Made by a program: the position numbers and the translations under genes. Shown in pieces: positions 37,625-61,269 of a DNA stretch of 64,000 nt. The number at the start of each line of letters is the position of its first letter. The first letter of the stretch is position 1. Location: NCBI GenBank assembly GCA_003021005.1, contig PXRI01000008.1, positions 62,001 through 126,000 on the forward strand, in the 5' to 3' direction. The notes below the pieces were generated by a model. That model had not been told where the DNA came from, made no database searches, and saw nothing but the letters and a program-made list of their open reading frames with translations. This DNA is from Halobacteriales archaeon QS_1_69_70 (lineage in GTDB: Archaea; Halobacteriota; Halobacteria; Halobacteriales; Haloarculaceae).

Positions 37625-37770
37625 TCATGTACCTGGCCGACAGGGAACCAGAACTGGCGACTATCACGCTGCAGTCTCTCCGCAGGCTCTGGAAAAACTC
37701 TCCCAGAAGAAAGCACGACAGATATCCCAGCATCCATTCAACGTCGAGTATGACTATACCGAACCAATAG
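37625..37770 (+). pseudogene. tyrosine recombinase N-terminal remnant
   Basis: FMYLADREPELATITLQSLRRL matches LYLADREPELRSVTLNSHRSRL of the integrase at 38939; DNA tgtacctggccgacagggaaccRgaactg shared. Confidence 0.65.
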
Positions 37771-38029: not shown

Positions 38030-38371
38030 ATGGGCCCAATGGCCGACGACCTGGACGGCTACGAAGGAGCGAAGGTCTACGACGATTGGACCGTCGTCCG
38101 GATACTCGTCCGCCGAACGTCGGACACAGCATATCCGTCAGGCTGGCGGTACACGTTCCACTACGGGGCGCTCACCGCCGGACCTGAGACGCTCGACGAC
38201 GGGACGATCCGCCGCTACAACAACGCCCACGAGGACGCGAAAGGCCACGAATTGCACGCCGCACCGGACCCAGAACCTGTGACCATCGAGTTCCCCGGAA
38301 TCGAGGAACTCTACGAACGGTTCTGGGACCAGATACCGAAACCACGGTTCGATCCATCCCCGGACAGGTGA
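38030..38371 (+). CDS. TumE-like (DUF6516) toxin family protein
   Basis: YDDWTVVRILVRRTSDTAYPSGWRYTFHYGALT...TIRRYNNAHEDAKGHELHAAPDPEPV; overlaps downstream wHTH gene. Confidence 0.6.
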   Translation: MGPMADDLDGYEGAKVYDDWTVVRILVRRTSDTAYPSGWRYTFHYGALTAGPETLDDGTIRRYNNAHEDAKGHELHAAPDPEPVTIEFPGIEELYERFWDQIPKPRFDPSPDR

Positions 38372-38784
38372 TAGCCATGATCCAGAACGCTACCAACGTA
38401 CTCTTGATTACAGTCGTACGCAGCGACGACGAGTTCTACGAGAAGGGTCTCGAAGCCATCCAGACGCTCGAGGATGGAGAGCCGATCGACCGACCAACAA
38501 CGATCACGTTCCCAGACGAGAAGCTGCTCGCCGAGACGTTCAACGAGCAGACCTATACGCTACTGAACGTCATCAGAGACGAGGCGCCCACGAGTATCCG
38601 AGAGACGGCACGGCTCGTCGCACGGGACAAGAAGAACGTCCACGAGGAGCTGACGACACTGGAAACGCTGGGCGTGATTCGCTTCGAACAGGATGGCCAG
38701 TCCAAACGGCCGATCTTCCCCTACGACGATCTCATCATTCGACCGTTCGGCGATTCGACCGAGGATACCGTCGCGCCAGCCTGA
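38368..38784 (+). CDS. HTH-domain antitoxin/regulator (HVO_A0114-like)
   Basis: LLNVIRDEAPTSIRETARLVARDKKNVHEELTTLETLGVIRFEQDGQSKRPIFPYDDL. Confidence 0.7.
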   Translation: MIAMIQNATNVLLITVVRSDDEFYEKGLEAIQTLEDGEPIDRPTTITFPDEKLLAETFNEQTYTLLNVIRDEAPTSIRETARLVARDKKNVHEELTTLETLGVIRFEQDGQSKRPIFPYDDLIIRPFGDSTEDTVAPA

Positions 38785-38938: not shown

Positions 38939-39949
38939 ATGGAACTCGAACCCATCGAACCCGAAACCGCAGTCGAACTGTACCTGGCCGACAGGGAACC
39001 GGAACTGAGAAGCGTGACACTGAACTCCCACCGCTCGCGGCTCGGCTTCTTCGTCGAGTGGTGTGCCGACCGCGGCATCGATAACCTGAACGAGCTGACA
39101 GGCCGGAAACTCAACGAGTACCGCCTCTGGCGCCGTAACGACGGCGACCTGGCGCCCGCCACCGAGAACTGCCAGATGGACACCCTTCGGGTCTTCGTCC
39201 GCTGGCTCGAATCCATTGACGGGGCACAGCAGGACCTCCACCAGAAGGTCCGCTCGCCCGCCGTCGGCCGCGACGAAGGCAGCCGCGACGAGATGCTGGA
39301 CGCCGAGGAGGCAGAGAAAGTGCTGACCTACCTCGAGACCTACGGGTACGCCTCGCCCCAGCACGTCACACTCGAGCTGCTTTGGCACACGATGCTCCGC
39401 CGCGGGGCCGCGCACGGCCTGGACGTCGACGACTACCACCCTGAGGACAAGTGTCTGGAGATACTCCACCGCCCGGAGACGGACACCCCGATCAAGAACG
39501 GGAAGCGTGGCGAGCGACTCCTGGCGCTCTCAGGGGACTTCTGCAACCTCCTCGATGACTACCTCCGACATAAACGGCACGACGTCGAAGACGACCACGG
39601 CCGCCGACCACTCCTCACGTCGGCCCGAGGCCGCCTGGGCCGATCGACCATCGGGAAATACTGTTATCGATATACCAGACCCTGTGAATACGACAACGAC
39701 TGCCCGCACGACCGCGATCCAGATGCCTGCGAAGCCGTGAATACCCGCAAGTGGTCTTCTTGCCCGTCGAGCCTCAGTCCGCACCCGTTCCGTCGCGGCA
39801 GTATCACGCACCAGCTCAAGGAAGATGTCCCGGAAACGGCTGTGGGGGGTCGGGCGAACGTGAGCCAGGATATCCTGGAGAAGCACTACGATCAACGGAC
39901 GAAGCGGGAGAAGATGGAGCAGCGACGGAAATATCTCAACAAGATATAA
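38939..39949 (+). CDS. tyrosine recombinase/integrase 1
   Basis: SAM-like N-domain, LRRGAAHGLDVDDY, HPFRRGSITHQL, HYDQRTKREKMEQRRKYL. Confidence 0.85.
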   Translation: MELEPIEPETAVELYLADREPELRSVTLNSHRSRLGFFVEWCADRGIDNLNELTGRKLNEYRLWRRNDGDLAPATENCQMDTLRVFVRWLESIDGAQQDLHQKVRSPAVGRDEGSRDEMLDAEEAEKVLTYLETYGYASPQHVTLELLWHTMLRRGAAHGLDVDDYHPEDKCLEILHRPETDTPIKNGKRGERLLALSGDFCNLLDDYLRHKRHDVEDDHGRRPLLTSARGRLGRSTIGKYCYRYTRPCEYDNDCPHDRDPDACEAVNTRKWSSCPSSLSPHPFRRGSITHQLKEDVPETAVGGRANVSQDILEKHYDQRTKREKMEQRRKYLNKI

Positions 39950-40110: not shown

Positions 40111-41151
40111 ATGGATATCGATATCCAGGGAATAGCTTACTCACAAATCGCATATCCGCTTGATAATAGCGACCAATGGCAAAATCTCATCGCAGGGGAG
40201 GAAGCGAATGATCTAGATCTTTTCAAACGTTACATCAAAGAGGTCGTGATCAAAGGAGACGTCTCTGACGTGACTGTAGGACATTTTGATGACACTGATG
40301 TAGAACCGCATGACTGGATAGAGACGGTTCGTTCAGTTGATGTTCAATCAGAAGAACAGGAGTTCCTCGACGCTGCTAAGAGAGTTTCTGAAAAACTTAA
40401 TGATATGATACATCAGGCTGCAAATGAAGGGGTTCTCTTCAACGTCCAAGCAGATATTGAAGATAGAGATGGGGGAAATATCGCTGAGGAAGGTCCTCAC
40501 CGTGTAGCGACTATTCTTAAATTAGATCTTGAAGAGGAGGAACGTCTTCAACTAATGTCTGATAACACTCTTGTTGAGTTAGATTTGGATGATATATTTC
40601 CAGAACCAAACGAACTTCAAAAAGGCCTATGTTATCCAATTATCAAAGTTCAGGGCTTCCGTTTACCAGGAGACGTGAAATTCTACCAGAAAGACAATGT
40701 TTCAGGTTACTTTCAGGAGTTTTTGGAATGCTCATCTGACCCAGGTTCTCTTGATCAGGCAAAGAAGGTATTTAACGCGGTTAGCCAAATCAAACGGGAC
40801 CGGACCGGTGAACTTGCCGATGGGAATGACCTGACCAGGTTCAAGAGCTTACAGGAAAGTTCAGACGGAGATGTGGTTGGAATAGATCATATTACGACTG
40901 TCGCAGGTGAAATCGTCGGAAGTGAGGTTTCAAGCGATGATATTGCTGAAAAGATGGGCGTTGATGATCCTCAGAGTATAGCTATAGATTCGACTGAGTT
41001 ACCGAATAAAGTGAAATATACTGTTGATGATGAGATTGACGTAACCTTCCCATCTTCAGCGAGTGATCATGTACGGAGGCAGACAACCGATGATGGTGTT
41101 GAAGTAATCATTACCGGGTCGGACGTTGATACAAATGTTTTAGACAGATAA
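40111..41151 (+). CDS. AT-rich cargo protein A; possible nucleoid-associated (NA37)/DUF4868-like protein
   Basis: 346 aa; GPHRVATILKLDLEEEERL...DNVSGYFQEFLECSS...QAKKVFNAVSQI loosely resembles NA37-type proteins. Confidence 0.5.
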   Translation: MDIDIQGIAYSQIAYPLDNSDQWQNLIAGEEANDLDLFKRYIKEVVIKGDVSDVTVGHFDDTDVEPHDWIETVRSVDVQSEEQEFLDAAKRVSEKLNDMIHQAANEGVLFNVQADIEDRDGGNIAEEGPHRVATILKLDLEEEERLQLMSDNTLVELDLDDIFPEPNELQKGLCYPIIKVQGFRLPGDVKFYQKDNVSGYFQEFLECSSDPGSLDQAKKVFNAVSQIKRDRTGELADGNDLTRFKSLQESSDGDVVGIDHITTVAGEIVGSEVSSDDIAEKMGVDDPQSIAIDSTELPNKVKYTVDDEIDVTFPSSASDHVRRQTTDDGVEVIITGSDVDTNVLDR

Positions 41152-42866
41152 TGATCTCTGACCTTCACGGTGTTTTGACAGATCTACAAGACTCATGGAC
41201 GTATTCAGAAGATCCTACCACGATTAAATTTTCTAGTAATGAACTTACTATCTCATGCCGAGAAAGAATATTTGAACAAATAGCTGATATTCGTTCAATT
41301 TTTGATGGGAGAAGCCTGATATTCAAGGTTTCCGAAGAAAGAGATATCTTTGAATACAGAATCCACTGGGAACCCAATAACAACATTACCCGGACCAGAG
41401 ACCAAGACGAGGATACAGAAGGTGATGATTTGTTTCAGGATGATGCAGCAATATCAGCAATAGAGACTTTGAGAAACAATCGTATAACAAATACTGAGCA
41501 ATTACGGGAATGCTTAGACGGCTTCATTGGTAATGAAAACGTAAAGGTCAGTTTTGTTTACCGTGTAAATACAGCAGACATTAGCGGAGTGATTAAATCT
41601 GAGATAGATGAACTAAATAGTGTTCGATTTTATGTACAAAAGTCAACATTTTTGGACCATATAGACATCGATGAAATGGACTCATTAAAAGAAATACTAC
41701 TCCCGGCTAATGAAAAACAATTGTTTGTTATCCAAGACATCGATGCGGCTTGTTATGGAAAGGATCTAGGTTTCTTTTCCTTATCGAATCTATTTTCGGA
41801 TTCGTATAATGATTTCTTGCGGATGAGATCGGAAATTGAAAGAAAAATATCTAAGGTTGGGCGGGAGTGCGTTATCGATAAATTCGAGAGTATTTATATC
41901 CCCCCAGATTTCTTCGAGCTCCAATCCATCAATGACGAATCTTTCGTTTCCGATTTATTTACCCAAATAAGCGGCTATCAATTATTGTATTCAATATTTT
42001 CTCTTAGCAATGTGGTAAGTCGTCGTTCTGACAGTTGGCAAATAAGAATAAACGGTAAAAAAATTCTGGAGGAAAACGTAAAGATAGATGACCATGAAGG
42101 TGGTTGGGAATTGAAGACACTTACATCTGAGAGAGTAGAATCGGATGTTCTCATAACGAAGGATATGGTTAGTTCCTTCGTCGAGGTGTTCCAATGGACC
42201 TATGAGATCCGGGAGACAGATAGATTATCAGTTTTAAGAAATATCATCACACTGTACACTACTACGATTGAAGGACTAATTGAGGATATTGATGAAATAT
42301 TCGGAAGTTCAAAATCTAACTTCCAATTCTATGCAGAGGAGAGCGTTGATGAGTTTTTGGAGATGCAACAAGACGTTAGTAATTACCTTCTTGAAACTCA
42401 GCGGGAGATCTCAGAACTTCGGCGTAGCCTCGCAAATAACCTGAGTAGGGACCTATTCAGAGTTTTTGGCTTTTTGATCGTCGTCTGGGTGGGTATCTTC
42501 CTTCAATTAGAACAAATTGCTACAGTACAAAATGCTTTGAGTCTCTCACTTGTCCCGGTTATCTTATATCTCATATTAAGTATCCGTGCAGTTATGGGCT
42601 TAAATCAACAGTTCATTTCTATCGAAGAACGACGTGATTCGTACTATGAAATGTATAAACGCCAATTGAGCGAAGAATTTTTCGATGATATAGTAGATTC
42701 GGACGAAGACCAACGTATTAGTAGCCAATTTCAAACCGATAAATGTATCTATTATATAGTCTTCGGTGGGTTATTGCTATTTGCCATCTACGCGGTCATT
42801 GACCTGCAAGTTATCCATGGGCCAGTGTCAGAAATTGCTAGTTCTATTTTATCTGAGGCAAATTAA
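41151..42866 (+). CDS. AT-rich cargo protein B; large protein with C-terminal transmembrane helices, unknown family
   Basis: 571 aa; stop/start overlap TAATG with protein A; hydrophobic segments FRVFGFLIVVWVGIFLQL, LSLVPVILYLILSIRAVMG, IYYIVFGGLLLFAIYAVIDL. Confidence 0.6.
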   Translation: MISDLHGVLTDLQDSWTYSEDPTTIKFSSNELTISCRERIFEQIADIRSIFDGRSLIFKVSEERDIFEYRIHWEPNNNITRTRDQDEDTEGDDLFQDDAAISAIETLRNNRITNTEQLRECLDGFIGNENVKVSFVYRVNTADISGVIKSEIDELNSVRFYVQKSTFLDHIDIDEMDSLKEILLPANEKQLFVIQDIDAACYGKDLGFFSLSNLFSDSYNDFLRMRSEIERKISKVGRECVIDKFESIYIPPDFFELQSINDESFVSDLFTQISGYQLLYSIFSLSNVVSRRSDSWQIRINGKKILEENVKIDDHEGGWELKTLTSERVESDVLITKDMVSSFVEVFQWTYEIRETDRLSVLRNIITLYTTTIEGLIEDIDEIFGSSKSNFQFYAEESVDEFLEMQQDVSNYLLETQREISELRRSLANNLSRDLFRVFGFLIVVWVGIFLQLEQIATVQNALSLSLVPVILYLILSIRAVMGLNQQFISIEERRDSYYEMYKRQLSEEFFDDIVDSDEDQRISSQFQTDKCIYYIVFGGLLLFAIYAVIDLQVIHGPVSEIASSILSEAN

Positions 42867-42875
42867 TAGGAAGCC

Positions 42876-43996
42876 TTAATTACAAAAATTACCTTCATTG
42901 TTCAGCTGAAATTCGTCCAGTACCTGCTGACGTTGCTGCATCTTGCGCTCAGCAGACCGTACGTCATAGTGCTCATCGATAATGCTCGGGGAGACGTTAC
43001 ACCGCTCGCTAACCACCTCGACAGGAATCCCTGACGATAGTAGGTGGGTGATGTACCCCCGGCGGATCGGATGCGGCGTCACCGACGACGGACACTTCGA
43101 GACACTATCCAGATCGACGACCGCCTCGCAATCGGTGGGATCTCGATCGTGAGGGCACTCAGCTGAAACCTCACATGGCCTGGACCACTTGTAGATGTAC
43201 GTCCGGATCGTCGACTTCGCAACTCGACCATGCACCGATGTCAGAAGCGGTGATCGGCCATGCTCATCTGTTACGTCCGGCCGCTGGTGATCCAGATAGT
43301 CATCGATCACCGCACAGACCTCCGAGGAAATCGCAACCGGCCGCTCACCGCGGTTACCGTTCTTGATCGGGGTATCCGTCTCCGGTCGGTGCGCGATGTT
43401 TAGATGGGGTGTCTCGGCGTTCGGGCGATAATCGTCGATGTCAAGCGCGTGGGCGGCACCCATCCGGATCCCGGTTTCGGCCAGTATGAGCCAGGTCACG
43501 TGCTCGACGGTCGCGTACTCGTACGTGCCGAGATACTCGACGATCTCTTCGACTCGATCGGCGTGAAGAGTCTTTTCTCGGGAGCCTTCGCCACGCGGGA
43601 CGTTGGGGACGTTAATTTTGTGGAACAGGCCCTCGGGGACCGCGTCGATGGTTTCACACCATTTGATGAAAACCCGAAGCGTCGACATCTGCGTCCGTTC
43701 GCTGACGACGTTGAGGTCCTCCCGTCGCCACACCTGGAACTCGTGGAGGTCGCGAGCCGAGAGGTCGTTCATGTTCTCGATGTCCTGCTCGGTGCACCAG
43801 TCGACGAGAAGCTCAGACGGGACCTGTGGCCCTTGACGGTCGCCTGTTGACAGTCCCGCTTCCGGTCGTCGAGATACATCTGGACGGCGTCTGCAGGGGT
43901 GATCGGTTCCAGGGAGTTTTCGGACTCTTGAAGCACTCCCCGGAGCGTGTCCTCGAGATCCCGGTCGTTCGGGATGGTGGGGACGTCGTTATTCAT
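42876..43996 (-). pseudogene. tyrosine recombinase/integrase 2, single-base frameshift
   Basis: N-terminal 43769-43996 and C-terminal 42876-43772 in different frames; HRSRLSF|LVDWCTEQDIENMNDL restored by adding one base near 43815; HRPETDTPIKNGNRGERP, HPIRRGYITHLL, HYDVRSAERKMQQRQQVL. Confidence 0.8.
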
Positions 43997-52329: not shown

Positions 52330-55300
52330 ATGACTTCGATGTTGTCTCTCGACCCTATCGTCGACAATTCCGAATCCACCCTCGAAGAAACGTACAAGAA
52401 GGTGATCCCACTCAGCGAAGAGATTCGGATTTCGACCGGCTACTTCTACCTCTCAGGATTCGACCTCGTCAAAGAAGACCTCGAACAGCTTGCCGACCCG
52501 GAGAAATTGGATCGAGCCCCAATGCGGATTCTGATGGGGAGGAAGACCGACCTTGCGACTGCCTCGGAAATAGAAGAAGGGATCTCGCTCCGGGACCAGT
52601 TCAAAGAGGAGCTAAAAGAGGATATTGCAGACCTGAATCAGGCTCAGGTTGAGCGATTAGACCGACTTCGGGACTTCATCGCAAACGAACTCATCGATGT
52701 CAGAATCAGAGTCCCTGACGACGGCTACTTCCACGCGAAAGGTGCGTGTTTCAGAGGCGTAGCCGACGACGAAGCAGAGAGGTCCGGAGAGACAGACACG
52801 CGAGCAGCTGTAACGATCGTCGGGTCCTCAAATTTTTCAGCGAGTGGGCAGCGAAGGAATATCGAGCTGAATATGACGAGTCAGGACCGGCGAGAAGCGG
52901 AAGCCTTCGAGGAGTGGTACGACAACCAGTGGGCCAACGCGGACGAGTTCAGCGAGGACGTCATCCAGATCATCGAAGGGAGCTCGAAATACCAGGAATG
53001 GAAGGATAAACAGGACGGTGAAACCGACGATGGGCCGGAACTCGGGACGTATCTCGAGCCCTTCGAGATGTACAAACTCCTGGCGTATGACGAATTGAAC
53101 GGGAACGTAAGCGTCCGAGATAGTCCACTCTACTACTTCCAGAAGCTTGGCTACGAGAGCGCCAAGGAGAAACTCTCGCAATTTAACGGGTGTATCATTT
53201 CCGACTCCGTCGGGTTGGGCAAGTCCTTCATCGGGAGCGAACTCCTCTACGATTACAGACAGCGGGGTGATCGATGTCTCCTCATCGTCCCCGCAAATCT
53301 CCAGGACCAGTGGATGGACCTACTCCAGGACATGACCGACGAGGACGGGAACCCGTACTTCGGCCTTGAAGTCGACGGGACTCATCTCGATCTGATGAGC
53401 ATCAACAAATTCCAGAATCTCTCCTATGAGGAGGTTCAAGAACTACGAGACGAGTTCGAGGTTCTGCTGATCGACGAAGCGCATCGCTTCAGGAATTCGG
53501 GCAAGTGGCGACCCAATCCGAAGCACGACGACGATTACAAGGGGACGAGACGCCACGCGAACCTCCGGCAACTCCGCGAGAAGACGATGATCATGTTGAC
53601 GGCCACGCCGATCAACAACAGCGCGACCGATCTGAAGAACCTCATCAGTCTCTTCACCAGCGCCGAGGAGCTTCGGAATAAAGCGTCGCTCGATTTCAGT
53701 GCCTTCGACGAGTACATTGATCTCTCCGAGACGCGAAAGCGCATCGCGGCGGGGAAGGAAGAGGTCAGCGAACGGGAGCAGGAGCAACTCACAGAGCAAC
53801 TCCAGCGACGGTCAGCAGAGATCTCAAACATTCTCAACGAGGTCATGGTCCTCCGGACGCGAAACCACGTGAAAGAGAAGATCCAGGAAGACGAAGACTT
53901 CAAGATGAGTTTCGAACCGCCTACGCTCCACAAGGAGCAGTACTCGCTTCCAGAGGCCTACCAGCCGATATATCGGATGCTCCCGGATGTAATGGACGCC
54001 CTCCACCTCCCTCACATTACGATCAAGAATCCCAAATCCGGTGGGACGCTCAAAGCGCTGTACAAACTCAATCTCCTGAAGCGGCTTGAATCGTCCACGT
54101 ATGCCTTCGTCCAGTCGGTCGAAACGCTCCACCAGAGCGAGCGGCAACTCCTTGGAATCCTCGATGGGGTGCCCGACGACGAGAAAATTGACGTGCTCCG
54201 GGAGGTGGGCGACGGTGACGCCCCGGCATCGATCGAGGACTTCGTGGACGGAGACGATGCAGCCGAAGACCTGGAGGAGACGCTGGAAGAGTTCGGGTTT
54301 GATTCGAGTGTCGTTCGAGCAGATGGTGGGGACGAGGAAACGGAGGACGAGTTGGCCGACGCCACCGTGGGCGAGGTGAAGCAGTACGTCCGGGAGGACC
54401 TGACCCTGCTTGCCTATTTCCTGTCGCAGTTCATCGGCGACGTCGCCTATGACGCCGGGGAGGTTAGTGACCACGCGGTTGCGACGAGACAGTGGCTGAC
54501 CGACCACAATGCTGGAATACTCCCCGAGGTTCCCGAAGAAGGCGAGGAGCCGATACTGTATCCGAGGAGCGATCTCAGTGATGTGGATGGGGGGACGCGG
54601 GAGTTCTACGAAGCTGTCTTCTCGCTCCGCGAGTTCCGTGATCCGAAGATCGACAAGCTTGCTGATGTCCTAAACGATCACGACAAGAAGGTCCTCATAT
54701 TCACCCAGTATCGGGCGACGGCGGACTACGTCTATCGGACGCTTCGAGATAACCCGGACTCGCCGCTCACCTCAGACAACAGCGCGGTGATCAAGGGTGG
54801 CGACGAGAACAAGCAGGACATTATCAAACGGTTTGCCCCGGAAGCGGCAGGCTATCAGCAAACCCTCGGCGAGTCCGGTGAGACTGAACTCCAGTATGTC
54901 GTCGCGACGGACACCCTGAGCGAAGGGGTCAACCTTCAGGATGTCCACGTTGTCGTGAACTATGATCTTCCTTGGAATCCGATGCGGATCGTCCAGCGCG
55001 TCGGTCGGATCGACCGCATCGGGAGCACCCAGGAGAAGCACGTCCACAACTTCTACCCCGATGGCGACATCGAGGCCGCGATCAAACTCCTGGAGCGATT
55101 GCAGGCGAAGATCAACGACATCGCCCTGATCGTCGGGAAGGAGAACAACATCCTCGATCCGAATGAGGACCAAATCCTCGGCCGAGCTGGGGTGGAGACG
55201 GAGAAGACCATAGGTGAGTTAGAGGTCGAGGAGATCGAGGAGTCCCTCCGGAAGTCAAGGGAGGTCGACGACGTTAACGAACTCGACGATACGAGCAAAA

Positions 55301-56133
55301 ATCCGCTCCTCAGGAACGCGGGGAGCAACGAGGATGCGGCCTTCGAGCGATACCTCCTCAAGCAGGAATTGAACGAGGACTACGGTCTTGAAGCCGATGA
55401 TTTCGAGTTCGCAGAGACCTTCTTCGAGGAGCCGGTTGCGGATCGTGATCTACTCTACACCAATGCGACAGACGTAGAGGCAGGGCCTCGACCAGGTGTG
55501 TTTGGATTGGCCCACCTCTGGTTCGAAGACGACGAAGACGCGCCACTCGGACGGGTCCGTCGGGCGTTCTACTACAAACCGTTCGGGAACGAGGTCAAAG
55601 AACGGCCGGTCCGGATGCTCGGACTCGAACCGGAATCGACCGGCGACCCCATCACTGCCGAGGACGACACGGAGCGGGTACTCGAAGAACGAGAAGCAAT
55701 CGACGACCTCGTCGACCAGCGGTTGGAGGCCGTCCGCGAGAGTCAGGTCGAGGGGGCATTCCTCCAGGGCGGGGAACACTCCAAGGAACAGGAAACGTTG
55801 ATCAGCTTCTGCAAGCAGTACATCGAACCCCGGTTCGAGGAGAAACCCGCCAGTGGAGAGTACGACTCGGTCAGCGAGCGGGCAGCGGTACTTCGAGATC
55901 GCCTGGGGGAAGTTGGGCTCAAGAACACAGACGAAGATCGGGTCCTCCGGAATCGATTCAGGCACAATAAAGACTACGAGACGCTCCCGGACTGGCCAGT
56001 CGAGGAGTTCCTCGACACGCTGGAGAGGTTTCTCGACGAATACGTTGTCGAGTCCACCGAATATCAGGAAACGCTCGTCGGGGAGAGCGAGATCGAGGCA
56101 CGGCTGATCTGCTGGGGTGTGATCGGTGCATAA
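52330..56133 (+). CDS. PLD-family nuclease fused to SNF2-type helicase
   Basis: PLD motif YFHAKGACF...VGSSNFSASGQRRNIELN; helicase SVGLGKSFIGSELLYDY, LLIDEAHRFRN, MLTATPINN, TDTLSEGVNLQDVHVVVNYDLPWNPMRIVQRVGRIDRIG. Confidence 0.88.
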   Translation: MTSMLSLDPIVDNSESTLEETYKKVIPLSEEIRISTGYFYLSGFDLVKEDLEQLADPEKLDRAPMRILMGRKTDLATASEIEEGISLRDQFKEELKEDIADLNQAQVERLDRLRDFIANELIDVRIRVPDDGYFHAKGACFRGVADDEAERSGETDTRAAVTIVGSSNFSASGQRRNIELNMTSQDRREAEAFEEWYDNQWANADEFSEDVIQIIEGSSKYQEWKDKQDGETDDGPELGTYLEPFEMYKLLAYDELNGNVSVRDSPLYYFQKLGYESAKEKLSQFNGCIISDSVGLGKSFIGSELLYDYRQRGDRCLLIVPANLQDQWMDLLQDMTDEDGNPYFGLEVDGTHLDLMSINKFQNLSYEEVQELRDEFEVLLIDEAHRFRNSGKWRPNPKHDDDYKGTRRHANLRQLREKTMIMLTATPINNSATDLKNLISLFTSAEELRNKASLDFSAFDEYIDLSETRKRIAAGKEEVSEREQEQLTEQLQRRSAEISNILNEVMVLRTRNHVKEKIQEDEDFKMSFEPPTLHKEQYSLPEAYQPIYRMLPDVMDALHLPHITIKNPKSGGTLKALYKLNLLKRLESSTYAFVQSVETLHQSERQLLGILDGVPDDEKIDVLREVGDGDAPASIEDFVDGDDAAEDLEETLEEFGFDSSVVRADGGDEETEDELADATVGEVKQYVREDLTLLAYFLSQFIGDVAYDAGEVSDHAVATRQWLTDHNAGILPEVPEEGEEPILYPRSDLSDVDGGTREFYEAVFSLREFRDPKIDKLADVLNDHDKKVLIFTQYRATADYVYRTLRDNPDSPLTSDNSAVIKGGDENKQDIIKRFAPEAAGYQQTLGESGETELQYVVATDTLSEGVNLQDVHVVVNYDLPWNPMRIVQRVGRIDRIGSTQEKHVHNFYPDGDIEAAIKLLERLQAKINDIALIVGKENNILDPNEDQILGRAGVETEKTIGELEVEEIEESLRKSREVDDVNELDDTSKNPLLRNAGSNEDAAFERYLLKQELNEDYGLEADDFEFAETFFEEPVADRDLLYTNATDVEAGPRPGVFGLAHLWFEDDEDAPLGRVRRAFYYKPFGNEVKERPVRMLGLEPESTGDPITAEDDTERVLEEREAIDDLVDQRLEAVRESQVEGAFLQGGEHSKEQETLISFCKQYIEPRFEEKPASGEYDSVSERAAVLRDRLGEVGLKNTDEDRVLRNRFRHNKDYETLPDWPVEEFLDTLERFLDEYVVESTEYQETLVGESEIEARLICWGVIGA

Positions 56134-56190
56134 CGTCGCCATCAAACGGGTGGATCCAACTCAGAACGAACCACCGCAGGGAGTCGATTC

Positions 56191-57078
56191 GTGACCAACG
56201 TACTGCCGTATCACATCGGGCCAGAAGATCGCTACTCGCTCGAGTTCGTCAATCCTGACGAAGGACAATGGAAAGAGCACCTCGCAGCGCGTACCACGGA
56301 GCGAGGAGTGGCGTTCAAGTCTCGGGAAGTCACCATCGAGACCGACGAGGGAATCCAGACACTCTACGCCGTGTACTCCGATGCCGTTCCAGAAACCGTC
56401 CTCGACGAGCAATCGGACGAGGAGATTCAGGCGATGTTGGACGAACAGTTTACCGAGGCTGAAATACAGGTGCTTAGTCTCATTCTCGACGTTTTCATCG
56501 GCATCACAAGGAAAGAAGAGGAGCAAACAGGCCGGTTTACGATCTACAAGGACATGAACCTCCTCAAAATTCCGCAGATCCTGGCCTATCCGGAGTGGGG
56601 CGAAGCATCAATCACTGATGTGGGTGGACAGCTCCTCTCTCGCTTCATCCTATCCCATCCGATGCCGAATGCAAATCACCGAAGCGCGCTCGGGCTCCTC
56701 GAACGATATCTTCGCTCACATGGCGACGGGCTCACGGTGCCGGACACCGGCGAACCTGGAATCTGGTACCAGTGGGCCCGACCATACATACACGATTCCA
56801 AGCGACTGTTGACCGTCCGCCGCAACGCTCACTTGTTTCGATATGCCAGAGAATTCGGTGTTGATATCATCCTCCGAAAGAACGACGTTGACATCGATCT
56901 CCACGACTTCGATCTGGACGTGGTAGACACCCTCGAGTCTTTCGGACAGACCCACGAGGATCGGAGTGTCGACTTCGTCGAGACGATTCTCGACCAGGCA
57001 GATGCCGATACGAAAAGGTTCGAAACGACGCAGGATCCAGGATTCGACGCCTTCGTCGACGCCTTGACGTCGGACTAA
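56191..57078 (+). CDS. protein with degenerate Fic/Doc-like motif
   Basis: SRFILSHPMPNANHRSALGLLERYL resembles HPFxxGNGR-type Fic motif; GTG start. Confidence 0.5.
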   Translation: MTNVLPYHIGPEDRYSLEFVNPDEGQWKEHLAARTTERGVAFKSREVTIETDEGIQTLYAVYSDAVPETVLDEQSDEEIQAMLDEQFTEAEIQVLSLILDVFIGITRKEEEQTGRFTIYKDMNLLKIPQILAYPEWGEASITDVGGQLLSRFILSHPMPNANHRSALGLLERYLRSHGDGLTVPDTGEPGIWYQWARPYIHDSKRLLTVRRNAHLFRYAREFGVDIILRKNDVDIDLHDFDLDVVDTLESFGQTHEDRSVDFVETILDQADADTKRFETTQDPGFDAFVDALTSD

Positions 57079-57185
57079 TCGGGAAGATCTGCCAGGTTTT
57101 CCCCAACCTCGCGTGCGCCACGACTCAGGTCAGAGCGGTCATCAGTCCGCTCTTGAACCGCGTTCCGAAGTTCCTCAAGTTCCAT
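57075..57185 (-). CDS. 36-aa small ORF, convergent with the Fic-like gene
   Basis: MELEELRNAVQERTDDRSDLSRGAREVGENLADLPD*; stop overlaps that of 56191-57078; tandem TTAGTAA elements upstream. Confidence 0.35.
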   Translation of the reverse strand: MELEELRNAVQERTDDRSDLSRGAREVGENLADLPD

Positions 57186-57235
57186 GGCTTTGTTCTACTT
57201 AGTAATGGTTAGTAAGTCAGACCACAAAACTCCCT

Positions 57236-57265
57236 AGGATATTTCTTCTTTGGAAGAAATATCCT
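57236..57265. terminator. perfect 13-bp inverted repeat hairpin (aggatatttcttc-tttg-gaagaaatatcct)
   Basis: Exact reverse-complement arms with 4-nt loop in the intergenic gap downstream of the MTase. Confidence 0.5.
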
Positions 57266-57319
57266 TGGCCAACTGCCACGAAGCCATACTTCCTTCAAAA
57301 TTCAACTAAGACAGTAAAC

Positions 57320-60300
57320 TTACGGCATTGGTCCCTTTGCTGCGAGCTCGTCGTACTTCTCAAGCACCATATCGAAGTATGCTTCGTCCATCAGCCGAGG
57401 GTTCTCGACGCGATGAAAATCATCTAGAATGAACTCAGTTTCTTCTGATTCAAGACCGTATGCATGGAAGGAAGCAGCGTCGATTTCAGCGCGTAGCTCC
57501 CGGCGTTCTCCAGTTTCTGTAGTAACATCGATTCTACCAAGGCGTTCACGCATCTCGGCGAATTCATCGCCATAACAATTCAAACGAGCCGCACGTTCAG
57601 AGATGTAATTGAACCAGTTATCATACTCCGTAAGACGGGGGAGTTGTGACTCGTTGAACTTGTACTGGACAATATGACTATCTACCTTTGTCCTCATTAG
57701 GTAATCAAAGGGGACACTGTTAAGCAGTCCCGCCAAGACGAATAGTTCCTTATCTGTAAAGGCCCTCTCATATGCACTATGCATCGGATAATTGCTCAAA
57801 TCCTCCTCAGTAGGATTTATGACATATGGTCGGATTGAACAAATGGTATGAACTGTTACTATGTCCTTCGGAAGTACACTCGCAATCAGGCTTCGTTCGT
57901 CGTCAGCTCTTGCTATATTCCGAACGCCAATTCGGTACTCCGTACAATCAAGTAATACATCCTCCTTTGAGAGTTCGCGACGCCCATGTTCTTCCAAGAG
58001 GTTATTGACAAATGATTTCTGTGAGCCACTTCCCCCGAACTTCAGATAGATCGACTTCTTTAGACTCGTGTCTGGGTCACGCGACCGGAAATTCTTCATC
58101 CTGACGCGATGTTTCGCGCTCCGTTCCGGTTCGTCTTCATCGACTCCCCAAAGAGAAATTGGGTCGAGATCAGTCTCGATTTCATTATCATAAGCATACT
58201 GATGAATGTTCTTCCCCTCATAAATAGGGTAGTCCCCTTCTTCCGGATCTTCGATAAGACGATCAGAATCGTTAGCGCGGTCGAGCTCCTTCATATAGAG
58301 AATGGCTTGCCAAGCGTCCTCGACTTCCTCGCCAATCGGAGGGAACTTTACCATTTTAGACAGCGCATCAATCAGCTCTTGGGACCGGAGATACGGGAAG
58401 ATTCCAGAGTTCGGAGAATATTTTTCTAAAACCTCAACGGGAACGTCTATAGATCCGCCATCGAATTCTTTGAGAATAGATAAATCACCAATACTAAATC
58501 TACCTTTTATATCATTAGTAGTTCCACTATTCTTGAAGGTACAGATACAGAATCGATATCGGTCGTCAAGCTCATCGAAAATTTGCTTATTCTGGAACTG
58601 AACAAGATGATTTAAACCATTTTCATTTAGAAGATACTGTCGAAGATTCTTTCCAGTCGCACCAAGGAAGAAGCTTCCGGGCATAATCTGGGTTACATAC
58701 GAGCTATCTTTGGCTAGTTGAGTGGTCCTTTCAAAGAAGAATAATGACAACTCATTTTCAGTAGCTACAGTTTTGCCATCAATGGAAGGTTCCTGCAACT
58801 CATATTCCGTGGTTGAATTGTAGTAGTCTGCTTTGAGTTCCATCTCCTGTTGGAACTCTTCCCACATTTCCCTAATCTGCGGGTCTTCAAGGAGCTCTTC
58901 CTGCTTCTTCTCTTTCTCTTTTGGTGGTCTTGTCCGAAATTGTTCATCGTACTTTGGGAAGAAATGCTCCCGGTCTATCGTGATAACGTCCCACGGGGGA
59001 TTGCCTATAATAACATCAAACCCGCCATCTCTGTACACAGGAGCGAATTCCAGGACCCAATGGAAAGGGTGATACTCCTGAAGATCGACCATATCAACCT
59101 CATCAATACCAGCGTCGTGGAATTGTTTCAGAACCTTCTCGTCTAACACTTCACTATGGGATTCAATTCTCGACTCCGCTAACTTCCGGGCGTTAGTTGC
59201 CTCTGTTCCGCTGGTAGCGTCTTGATGGCGCTCAATAGCTTCAATGACGTCCTCATACAGCTCTTGTACTCCAGGTCCAGTCCCTGCACCCCAGTTATTC
59301 AGTGAACCATCACCTGCCTCAGTAGCAACTTCAATGACTTCGGTAAACCCAATGAGGGAGTTCCCCTGCCGAATGTTGAAGTCAATGTTTGGCAACGGTT
59401 CCACCTCGCTAGGCTCGTCCTCAATATCGGCCACCATCGAGAGCCACAACCGGAGTTTGCAGATCTCGACTGCCCCGTCGTCGATATCCACACCATACAG
59501 ATTGTTGAGGATGATCTCCCGTTTCGCATAGAGTCGTTTCCCACCTCTCCGACTCTGAACGTGCTCCAATTCGTCCCTGGTCCGACTTGAGAGCTCCCAG
59601 GCCTGCCCCTGGGCTTCCAGTTCCTCAAAATACTCCAGACACTGGAGGTAAATGTCTAGTAACACGTCCTGGGCCGCCAGCAGGAAGGCACCGCTGCCCA
59701 CCGCGGGATCCAGCACGCGAATGCTCTGAAGAATGTCGAAATACAGCGTCTCCACGTGGTCCGTCTGGACGTCGCCCGTCGGCCCCTGCTGTGTCATCAT
59801 CCCCCCGTCGGTCGCGACAGCCTCACCCGAGGCGTCCGGAGCCGAGTCAATCAGCGCGAACACCTCGTCGATTTCCCCGTAATCGGCGTCGGCGGCCTCC
59901 TTGAGCTGGTCCAGAAGATACGGGTGAATGGACCGCCGGGCCATGAAGCCGGTGATCTCCTCGGGTGTGTAGTACGCCCCCATCTCCTTCTGGTTGACCG
60001 TTTGCTCGAAGATGTGCCCCAGCACGGCAGGCGAGAGGTTCTTGGGGTCGACGATGTCCAACCGCTCGTCAACGTTCCAGTTCCAGTCGGAGAGGAAATC
60101 CAGGATCTCGTCGAAGAGATCGTTAGTTTCCGCTGCCGACTCGCCGAGCCTGACGTCCGGGAACTCCTCTTCGACCGGATTGGTGGTGAACAGGCCACCG
60201 TTGAGGTACGGCAAGCTGCCGAAGTCAGGATCCTGTCCCCCTTCGGCGAGCAGATCGAAGAACAACGGGTCGTAGAAGTCCTCGTAAACGTCTCCACCCT

Positions 60301-60955
60301 GCTGGACGACCTGGTTATGGTGTTCGTGGAGGTATTCGGGGTTCCGGTCCAGGAGGCGTTTCTCCTGGATGAAGTACAGGAAGATCATCCGGTCGAGGGT
60401 GACCTGGACGTAGCGTCGCTTCGCGTCGCCACGATCGTCCGGGATCCCGCTCACTTCCTGCACGAGATCAGTTCGCAGGTCCTCGAAGTCCTCGTAGAAC
60501 CCCTTGACGATCTGCTGGGTGTCGTAGAGGTCGCCGTAGATGGCTGCGGAGGAGCCGTATTCGATCTGGTTGAGCTTCTGCAGGATGGTATTCTTCGCGC
60601 CGCTGTCGCTCGTGAACTGCGATTTGGTGAAGGTGAGCTTCTGGTGTTTGATCTGGCCGTGCTTTTGGCCGAAGGTCCGGACGCGGGTTAGGAAGGTGAA
60701 CTCCTCGAAGTCGTTGGTCGCGACGAGGTTGGTGTGGCGACGGTCGACGTCTTTCGGCTTGAAATCCGTTGCCGATTCGCCTGGGCCGGCATTGACAAGT
60801 TCGATAAACTCGTCGTCGGCGAGCTGGAGTACGAGTCGGTTTTCATTGCTCAACTTCGGGCGATGCCTGAGGCCCCGTTTCTCGAAAGACTCGGCGATCG
60901 CCTCCAGAGAATTCCATCCGGCAATATCGGAGGCGGTAATCTGCTCGGGGGGCAT
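57320..60955 (-). CDS. N6-adenine DNA methyltransferase, Eco57I/PglX/DrmMI-like
   Basis: MGAYYTPEEITGFMARR, VLDPAVGSGAFLLAAQDVL, YGVDIDDGAVEICKLRLWLSMV, FDVIIGNPPWDVI (NPPW motif IV); long C-terminal target-recognition-like region. Confidence 0.88.
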   Translation of the reverse strand: MPPEQITASDIAGWNSLEAIAESFEKRGLRHRPKLSNENRLVLQLADDEFIELVNAGPGESATDFKPKDVDRRHTNLVATNDFEEFTFLTRVRTFGQKHGQIKHQKLTFTKSQFTSDSGAKNTILQKLNQIEYGSSAAIYGDLYDTQQIVKGFYEDFEDLRTDLVQEVSGIPDDRGDAKRRYVQVTLDRMIFLYFIQEKRLLDRNPEYLHEHHNQVVQQGGDVYEDFYDPLFFDLLAEGGQDPDFGSLPYLNGGLFTTNPVEEEFPDVRLGESAAETNDLFDEILDFLSDWNWNVDERLDIVDPKNLSPAVLGHIFEQTVNQKEMGAYYTPEEITGFMARRSIHPYLLDQLKEAADADYGEIDEVFALIDSAPDASGEAVATDGGMMTQQGPTGDVQTDHVETLYFDILQSIRVLDPAVGSGAFLLAAQDVLLDIYLQCLEYFEELEAQGQAWELSSRTRDELEHVQSRRGGKRLYAKREIILNNLYGVDIDDGAVEICKLRLWLSMVADIEDEPSEVEPLPNIDFNIRQGNSLIGFTEVIEVATEAGDGSLNNWGAGTGPGVQELYEDVIEAIERHQDATSGTEATNARKLAESRIESHSEVLDEKVLKQFHDAGIDEVDMVDLQEYHPFHWVLEFAPVYRDGGFDVIIGNPPWDVITIDREHFFPKYDEQFRTRPPKEKEKKQEELLEDPQIREMWEEFQQEMELKADYYNSTTEYELQEPSIDGKTVATENELSLFFFERTTQLAKDSSYVTQIMPGSFFLGATGKNLRQYLLNENGLNHLVQFQNKQIFDELDDRYRFCICTFKNSGTTNDIKGRFSIGDLSILKEFDGGSIDVPVEVLEKYSPNSGIFPYLRSQELIDALSKMVKFPPIGEEVEDAWQAILYMKELDRANDSDRLIEDPEEGDYPIYEGKNIHQYAYDNEIETDLDPISLWGVDEDEPERSAKHRVRMKNFRSRDPDTSLKKSIYLKFGGSGSQKSFVNNLLEEHGRRELSKEDVLLDCTEYRIGVRNIARADDERSLIASVLPKDIVTVHTICSIRPYVINPTEEDLSNYPMHSAYERAFTDKELFVLAGLLNSVPFDYLMRTKVDSHIVQYKFNESQLPRLTEYDNWFNYISERAARLNCYGDEFAEMRERLGRIDVTTETGERRELRAEIDAASFHAYGLESEETEFILDDFHRVENPRLMDEAYFDMVLEKYDELAAKGPMP

Positions 60956-61252: not shown

Positions 61253-61269
61253 CGTTCGAAAACCGAACG
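61253..61269. promoter_or_regulatory. inverted repeat CGTTCG-N5-CGAACG, copy 2, abutting tRNA 3' end
   Basis: cgttcg aaaac cgaacg, exactly 80 bp from copy 1. Confidence 0.5.

Follow-up and report, generated by a model that had tools for sequence, protein, structure and literature searches.

Genes A and B (positions 40,111 to 42,866 of the window, the 64,000-nucleotide stretch of haloarchaeal DNA analyzed here) very probably constitute an undescribed two-gene virus-defence system, related to Kiwa in layout without being a member of it. This assessment is based on the pairing itself, which recurs in archaea and bacteria and usually lies beside known antiviral genes. At a probability of about 50%, the pair is a mobile antiviral sensor-plus-effector system belonging to a family centred on NA37 proteins, with B as the membrane effector.

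The two genes overlap at the junction GATAATGATC, in which the stop and start codons share TAATG as read from the sequence. GC contents of 0.43 (A) and 0.38 (B) and a GC3 of 0.36-0.37 were computed, compared with a GC of 0.60-0.74 over most of the window, and integrase-like ORFs lie on both sides. An earlier note, made from the sequence, had described two overlapping genes of these lengths, far richer in AT than their surroundings and placed between integrases, and was correct in these respects. The candidate TATA box listed in Table 1 would yield a leaderless or short-leader transcript of A. Because of this likely promoter element and the overlapping start of B, transcription of both genes as one unit is plausible.

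Table 1. Coordinates (window positions), strand and basis of the features of the A-B region.
Feature	Position	Strand	Description and basis
Integrase-like ORF	38939-39949	+	Weak Phage_integrase match, E=4.6e-5
Candidate archaeal TATA box TTTATAAAA	40078..40086	+	~25-33 nt 5' of A start; read from sequence
Gene A	40111..41151	+	346 aa; putative divergent NA37/YejK-type nucleoid-associated protein
Gene B	41151..42866	+	571 aa; predicted membrane-anchored partner; no known family
B residues 1-340, soluble alpha/beta N-terminal region	41151..42170	+	AlphaFold2 secondary structure; no hydrophobic segment
B residues 341-430, conserved helical stalk into TM1	42171..42440	+	Conservation, model helices, alignment
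B TM1, residues 431-451	42441..42503	+	Hydropathy; most conserved segment, 3.21 bits
B TM2, residues 456-480	42516..42590	+	Hydropathy
B TM3, residues 528-546	42732..42788	+	Hydropathy
Integrase-like ORF	42876-43772	-	Similarity by eye

Just upstream of the first integrase-like ORF, ORF 38030-38371 matched the TumE toxin (PF20126, E=2.3e-10), and an overlapping ORF of 138 aa (38368-38784) gave weak HTH-type CARF/CasR matches, the two being a probable TumE-TumA toxin-antitoxin pair. A direct repeat of 56 nt (77% identical) was found at 37628-37683 and 38979-39034. Its second copy lies within the start of the integrase gene and its first looks like the remnant of a related integrase.

Distribution was assessed in a class sample of 400 genomes, with counts including the window genome. 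A was present in 14 and B in 12. In the ten other class genomes carrying both, A always lies immediately 5' of B on the same strand, at a spacing of -11 to +14 nt (-20 to +36 nt over 24 tabulated pairs). All 10 interpretable B homologues in the sample have A directly upstream; an eleventh other copy (G074), incomplete at a contig end, was left out of the linkage count. A without detectable B occurred in three genomes, as a full-length divergent protein (L037) and as truncated remnants of 261 and 188 aa. Homologues range in identity to the window protein from 50% down to 27% for A and from 37% down to 22% for B; the two genes have therefore stayed linked while their sequences diverged widely. 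The earlier note had allowed for A and B being linked nowhere else; the arrangement is not a chance one, being kept in ten other class genomes, and it is practically certain that the pair forms a conserved unit. The class sample includes ten further genomes from the genus of the window, and the pair is absent from all of them, which fits its horizontal spread. A contig scan with B alone found nothing, and one with the B family profile recovered six haloarchaea.

For A, a divergent relationship to NA37/YejK (NdpA, PF04245) can be proposed with high confidence from profile comparisons. The window protein itself falls below the Pfam cut-off for PF04245 (E=0.018; 14.9 bits against 24.6 bits), whereas all 12 of its 12 homologues match this model (best E=4e-10), and three A genes exceeded the curated cut-off in the genome search. 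Conversely, every NA37 match in the first 201-genome class sample was one of the A genes. The A family aligned end to end with bacterial NA37 (hhalign 96.8%, E=2.9e-10, 300 columns), and two plasmid homologues are named nucleoid-associated protein in RefSeq. The loose resemblance to NA37 suggested previously is thus strengthened. Divergence is nevertheless considerable, at ~13% identity to YejK. The AlphaFold2 model of A is poor (pLDDT 54), with YejK 9be2 as a weak top Foldseek hit (E=0.02, TM 0.22), and a PDB sequence search with the A alignment returned nothing meaningful. In haloarchaea A comes first in a gene pair, apart from the three genomes without detectable B, while E. coli YejK is not so paired.

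Hydropathy peaks divide B into a large soluble N-terminal region and three hydrophobic C-terminal segments, as the earlier note had proposed. The conserved stalk (2.94-3.13 bits versus a mean of 2.55), around which the family consensus in the alignment reads RNVATLY...SxSN...LSRDLFR, is built in the AlphaFold2 model (pLDDT 79) from helices 337-351, 358-369, 373-389 and 399-451, the long last one running into TM1. A conservation peak in stalk and TM1 would be unexpected in a passive anchor. The N-terminus is probably cytoplasmic, given the charged loop between TM2 and TM3 and the presumed partner A. Comparison of B with Pfam, NCBIfam, PADLOC and PDB sequences gave no above-threshold match, in agreement with its description as an unrecognized membrane protein and without the link to a housekeeping membrane family that had been considered for it, and no effector domain could be recognized. 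Against PDB folds, the model found nothing at E<=0.001, with coiled-coil and Hsp90 noise. Two candidate affiliations were rejected: a resemblance to ZorA/MotA (PADLOC E=0.018) was seen in one member only and was not repeated across the family, and kinship with DUF4231/SLATT/8xMP reached E=0.067 for 8xMP in one homologue, below the cut-off, and 0.2% in an hhalign comparison of the B family with a DUF4231 protein.

Kiwa (KwaA-KwaB) was compared in both subunits. The architecture of two adjacent genes for a membrane protein and a DNA-associated protein is found in A-B as well, a likeness of architecture only, with a possibly similar logic. PF16162 (former DUF4868, KwaB) was absent from A and 11 homologues in Pfam scans; hhalign gave 0.4% for A against haloarchaeal KwaB, and profile comparison 0.0% for bacterial NA37 against KwaB. 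A KwaB search of genome G000 found none, and the Kiwa models in PADLOC were not matched by A, B or B homologues. B further differs in its 571 aa, of which a part of ~430 residues is devoid of TMs, followed by the three C-terminal ones. Membership in Kiwa therefore fails on both subunits, and the idea that A is a DUF4868-type protein was abandoned. From the proposal of a Kiwa-like defence pair, the defence role is retained, being strongly suggested by context, and the Kiwa affiliation is dropped. KwaB-family (PF16162) genes do occur in 12/201 haloarchaeal genomes (L049-L060), mostly without a membrane-protein gene within ~1.5 kb, and can be read as solitary or as having a different partner.

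The main rival explanation is a Kiwa-like mode of action, in which B would sense virus attachment or entry at the membrane and position A at that site, where A would coat incoming DNA and block replication and transcription without membrane damage. Such tethering would suit a member of a nucleoid-associated family paired with a protein whose large predicted soluble region adjoins three TMs, and KwaA and KwaB follow the same logic, one being a membrane protein and the other binding DNA (review, PMC12904381). Neither A nor B is related to Kiwa, however, and conservation in B is highest in stalk and TM1; we consider this explanation rather unlikely.

Relatives outside the haloarchaea were collected using a pair-family definition of NA37 directly followed by a same-strand protein that is soluble in its N-terminal part and has about three TMs towards the C-terminus, of which a simple hydropathy scan detected only two in some members. 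A search for NA37 in 397 genomes of the phylum yielded four more loci. Two methanogen-side archaea (L083, L085) carry NA37 followed by a protein of 574-582 aa with three C-terminal TMs, peaking at 420/448/515 and 435/463/532, a spacing nearly identical to that in B (near 435/463/532). The L085 partner is a B homologue (E=2e-21). In L082, where the partner is broken, the large ORF beside NA37 looks restriction-like by eye. In eight bacterial (plasmid) loci the gene directly after NA37 encodes a protein of ~400 aa whose TMs lie at the C-terminal end; a ninth bacterial partner (Methylobacterium, L075) is unannotated and the NA37 gene there was not separately read. Pairs of NA37 with a C-terminal-TM protein were thus found in the window, at ten other loci in haloarchaea and two in methanogen-side archaea, and at eight in bacteria. 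Comparison of archaeal and bacterial second genes gave 48% (E=1.8e-4; reversed control 9%) for the C-terminal halves and 0.8% for the N-terminal parts, and the L083 partner was matched both by the archaeal B profile (86%, E=4.6e-6) and by the bacterial partners (61%). These values are only suggestive, and the C-terminal half may be shared between the two groups.

In Methylobacter (L070 6313-9874), the NA37-TM pair adjoins two neighbouring genes annotated as AAA ATPase and ATP-dependent helicase, a couple that is Gabija-like by annotation only. No relative was found in a viral-contig scan with A or in a phage collection searched with an A homologue. A viral-contig scan with bacterial NA37 retrieved one IMG/VR contig (L087 223-3100) carrying NA37, a TM partner and a lysozyme-like ORF; the bacterial pair may be prophage-borne. 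Distant blastn of two bacterial pairs against E. coli genomes gave no match, diverged copies being possible.

A second type of partner was found at three loci, in an archaeon of the phylum (L084), on a Klebsiella plasmid and on a Streptomyces plasmid, where NA37 is directly followed by a gene with a RelA/SpoT domain (E 3e-18, 1e-11 and 8e-15). In a tree with long branches and weak deep nodes, the three RelA/SpoT-paired NA37 proteins, from three phyla, formed one group (support 97/96); NA37 sequence thus tracks partner type more than host. These loci suggest that NA37 is the common component, serving in sensing or regulation, and that the effector encoded by the second gene can be swapped. It is mainly this exchange of partners that favours a sensor-plus-effector system over pure tethering, as RelA/SpoT proteins pair with the NA37 module with no need of a membrane tether. 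On the Klebsiella pneumoniae plasmid (L088 5506-8069), a DUF4231 membrane protein, NA37 and the RelA/SpoT protein are encoded in this order, closely packed on one strand, possibly a three-part defence operon.

The RelA/SpoT domain also occurs in known toxins, for example CapRel/toxSAS, and a RelA/SpoT gene replaces B beside NA37 in three phyla, but B itself lacks such a domain. With such partners, a translationally coupled order with A first and pairs located on plasmids, the module could be of the toxin-antitoxin type, A restraining a toxic B (or RelA/SpoT protein), with element maintenance as its main role and virus defence as a secondary one. The genes exceed the typical size for this, a full-length A exists on its own (L037), and the positions inside BREX and beside restriction systems described below fit defence better than plain addiction. 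This explanation is judged improbable.

By raw count, one or more PADLOC families lie within 8 kb of A-B in each of the 10 haloarchaeal neighbourhoods. In L027 the pair lies inside a BREX operon, all on one strand, in the order BrxC, BrxB, BrxC/PglY, A, B, PglX. Type I restriction genes are near the pair in L030, L031 and L032, HEC-05/HEC-06 or Orf5-type proteins in L028, L029, L034 and L036, and in L035 a PLD-SNF2 helicase together with a type IIG enzyme; L033 provides weaker evidence, a UvrD/GajB-type helicase being its sole PADLOC family. The window resembles L035 in having a PLD-SNF2 helicase and a IIG-type methyltransferase (52330-60955). From this gene context, an antiviral role of A-B appears likely. 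The wider window segment 45048-60955 encodes a UvrD-like helicase, a RecB/AddB-like protein, a 547-aa unknown, the PLD-SNF2 helicase (C3a139/DrmD-like), a 295-aa unknown and then the type IIG-like methyltransferase, and is a probable multi-gene defence cluster; a tRNA-Arg follows at 61268.

The same neighbourhoods bear on a function outside defence, as a mobile-element or plasmid regulator or a partition device in which A would organize DNA and B anchor it to the membrane. There is precedent in NdpA2, an NA37 protein that regulates transfer of the Pseudomonas element ICE PAPI-1 (PMC8565334), and yejK is present on many Pseudomonas plasmids. The haloarchaeal pairs, however, lie among restriction and BREX genes, occur sporadically (the 12/400 genomes mentioned above), and had no transfer or replication genes standing out beside them in the neighbourhoods read, which makes this alternative improbable as well.

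For the preferred sensor-plus-effector system, the following mechanism is proposed. A, as an NA37/YejK-type protein of the cytoplasm, would bind nucleic acid and thereby register infection, for instance through incoming, replicating or reorganized DNA. B would be a membrane protein whose large N-terminal region faces the cytoplasm, kept inactive by, or through, A by a presumed contact between the two. A change in the state of A would be passed as a signal along the conserved stalk of B to its TM bundle, and the bundle, as the putative effector, would disturb the membrane and halt the infection, probably at a cost to the cell.

So far, YejK-type proteins have mainly been treated as nucleoid housekeeping proteins. 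A system with a YejK/NA37 domain has been validated against phage in E. coli (DefensePredictor; DeWeirdt et al. 2026, PMC13092281), a likeness to A-B in this domain; that system was tested in E. coli, and the text of the paper gives neither an operon layout nor a mechanism for it and mentions no archaeal pairs in connection with it. A literature search of incomplete coverage returned no description of NA37 paired with either a membrane protein or a RelA/SpoT protein. Tentatively, NA37/YejK may be the shared sensor of a modular immune family found in both bacteria and archaea, in which a three-TM membrane protein and a RelA/SpoT-type nucleotide enzyme would be two, at the least, of the interchangeable effectors. 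Enterobacterial YejK, solitary and with a housekeeping role, would then be a relative of immune sensors. A-B adds a candidate defence system to the haloarchaea. The pairing of NA37 with an effector, in archaea and bacteria and with two effector types, offers a testable logic for the validated YejK-domain system, and the pair would make sensing of viral DNA by NA37 proteins directly testable.
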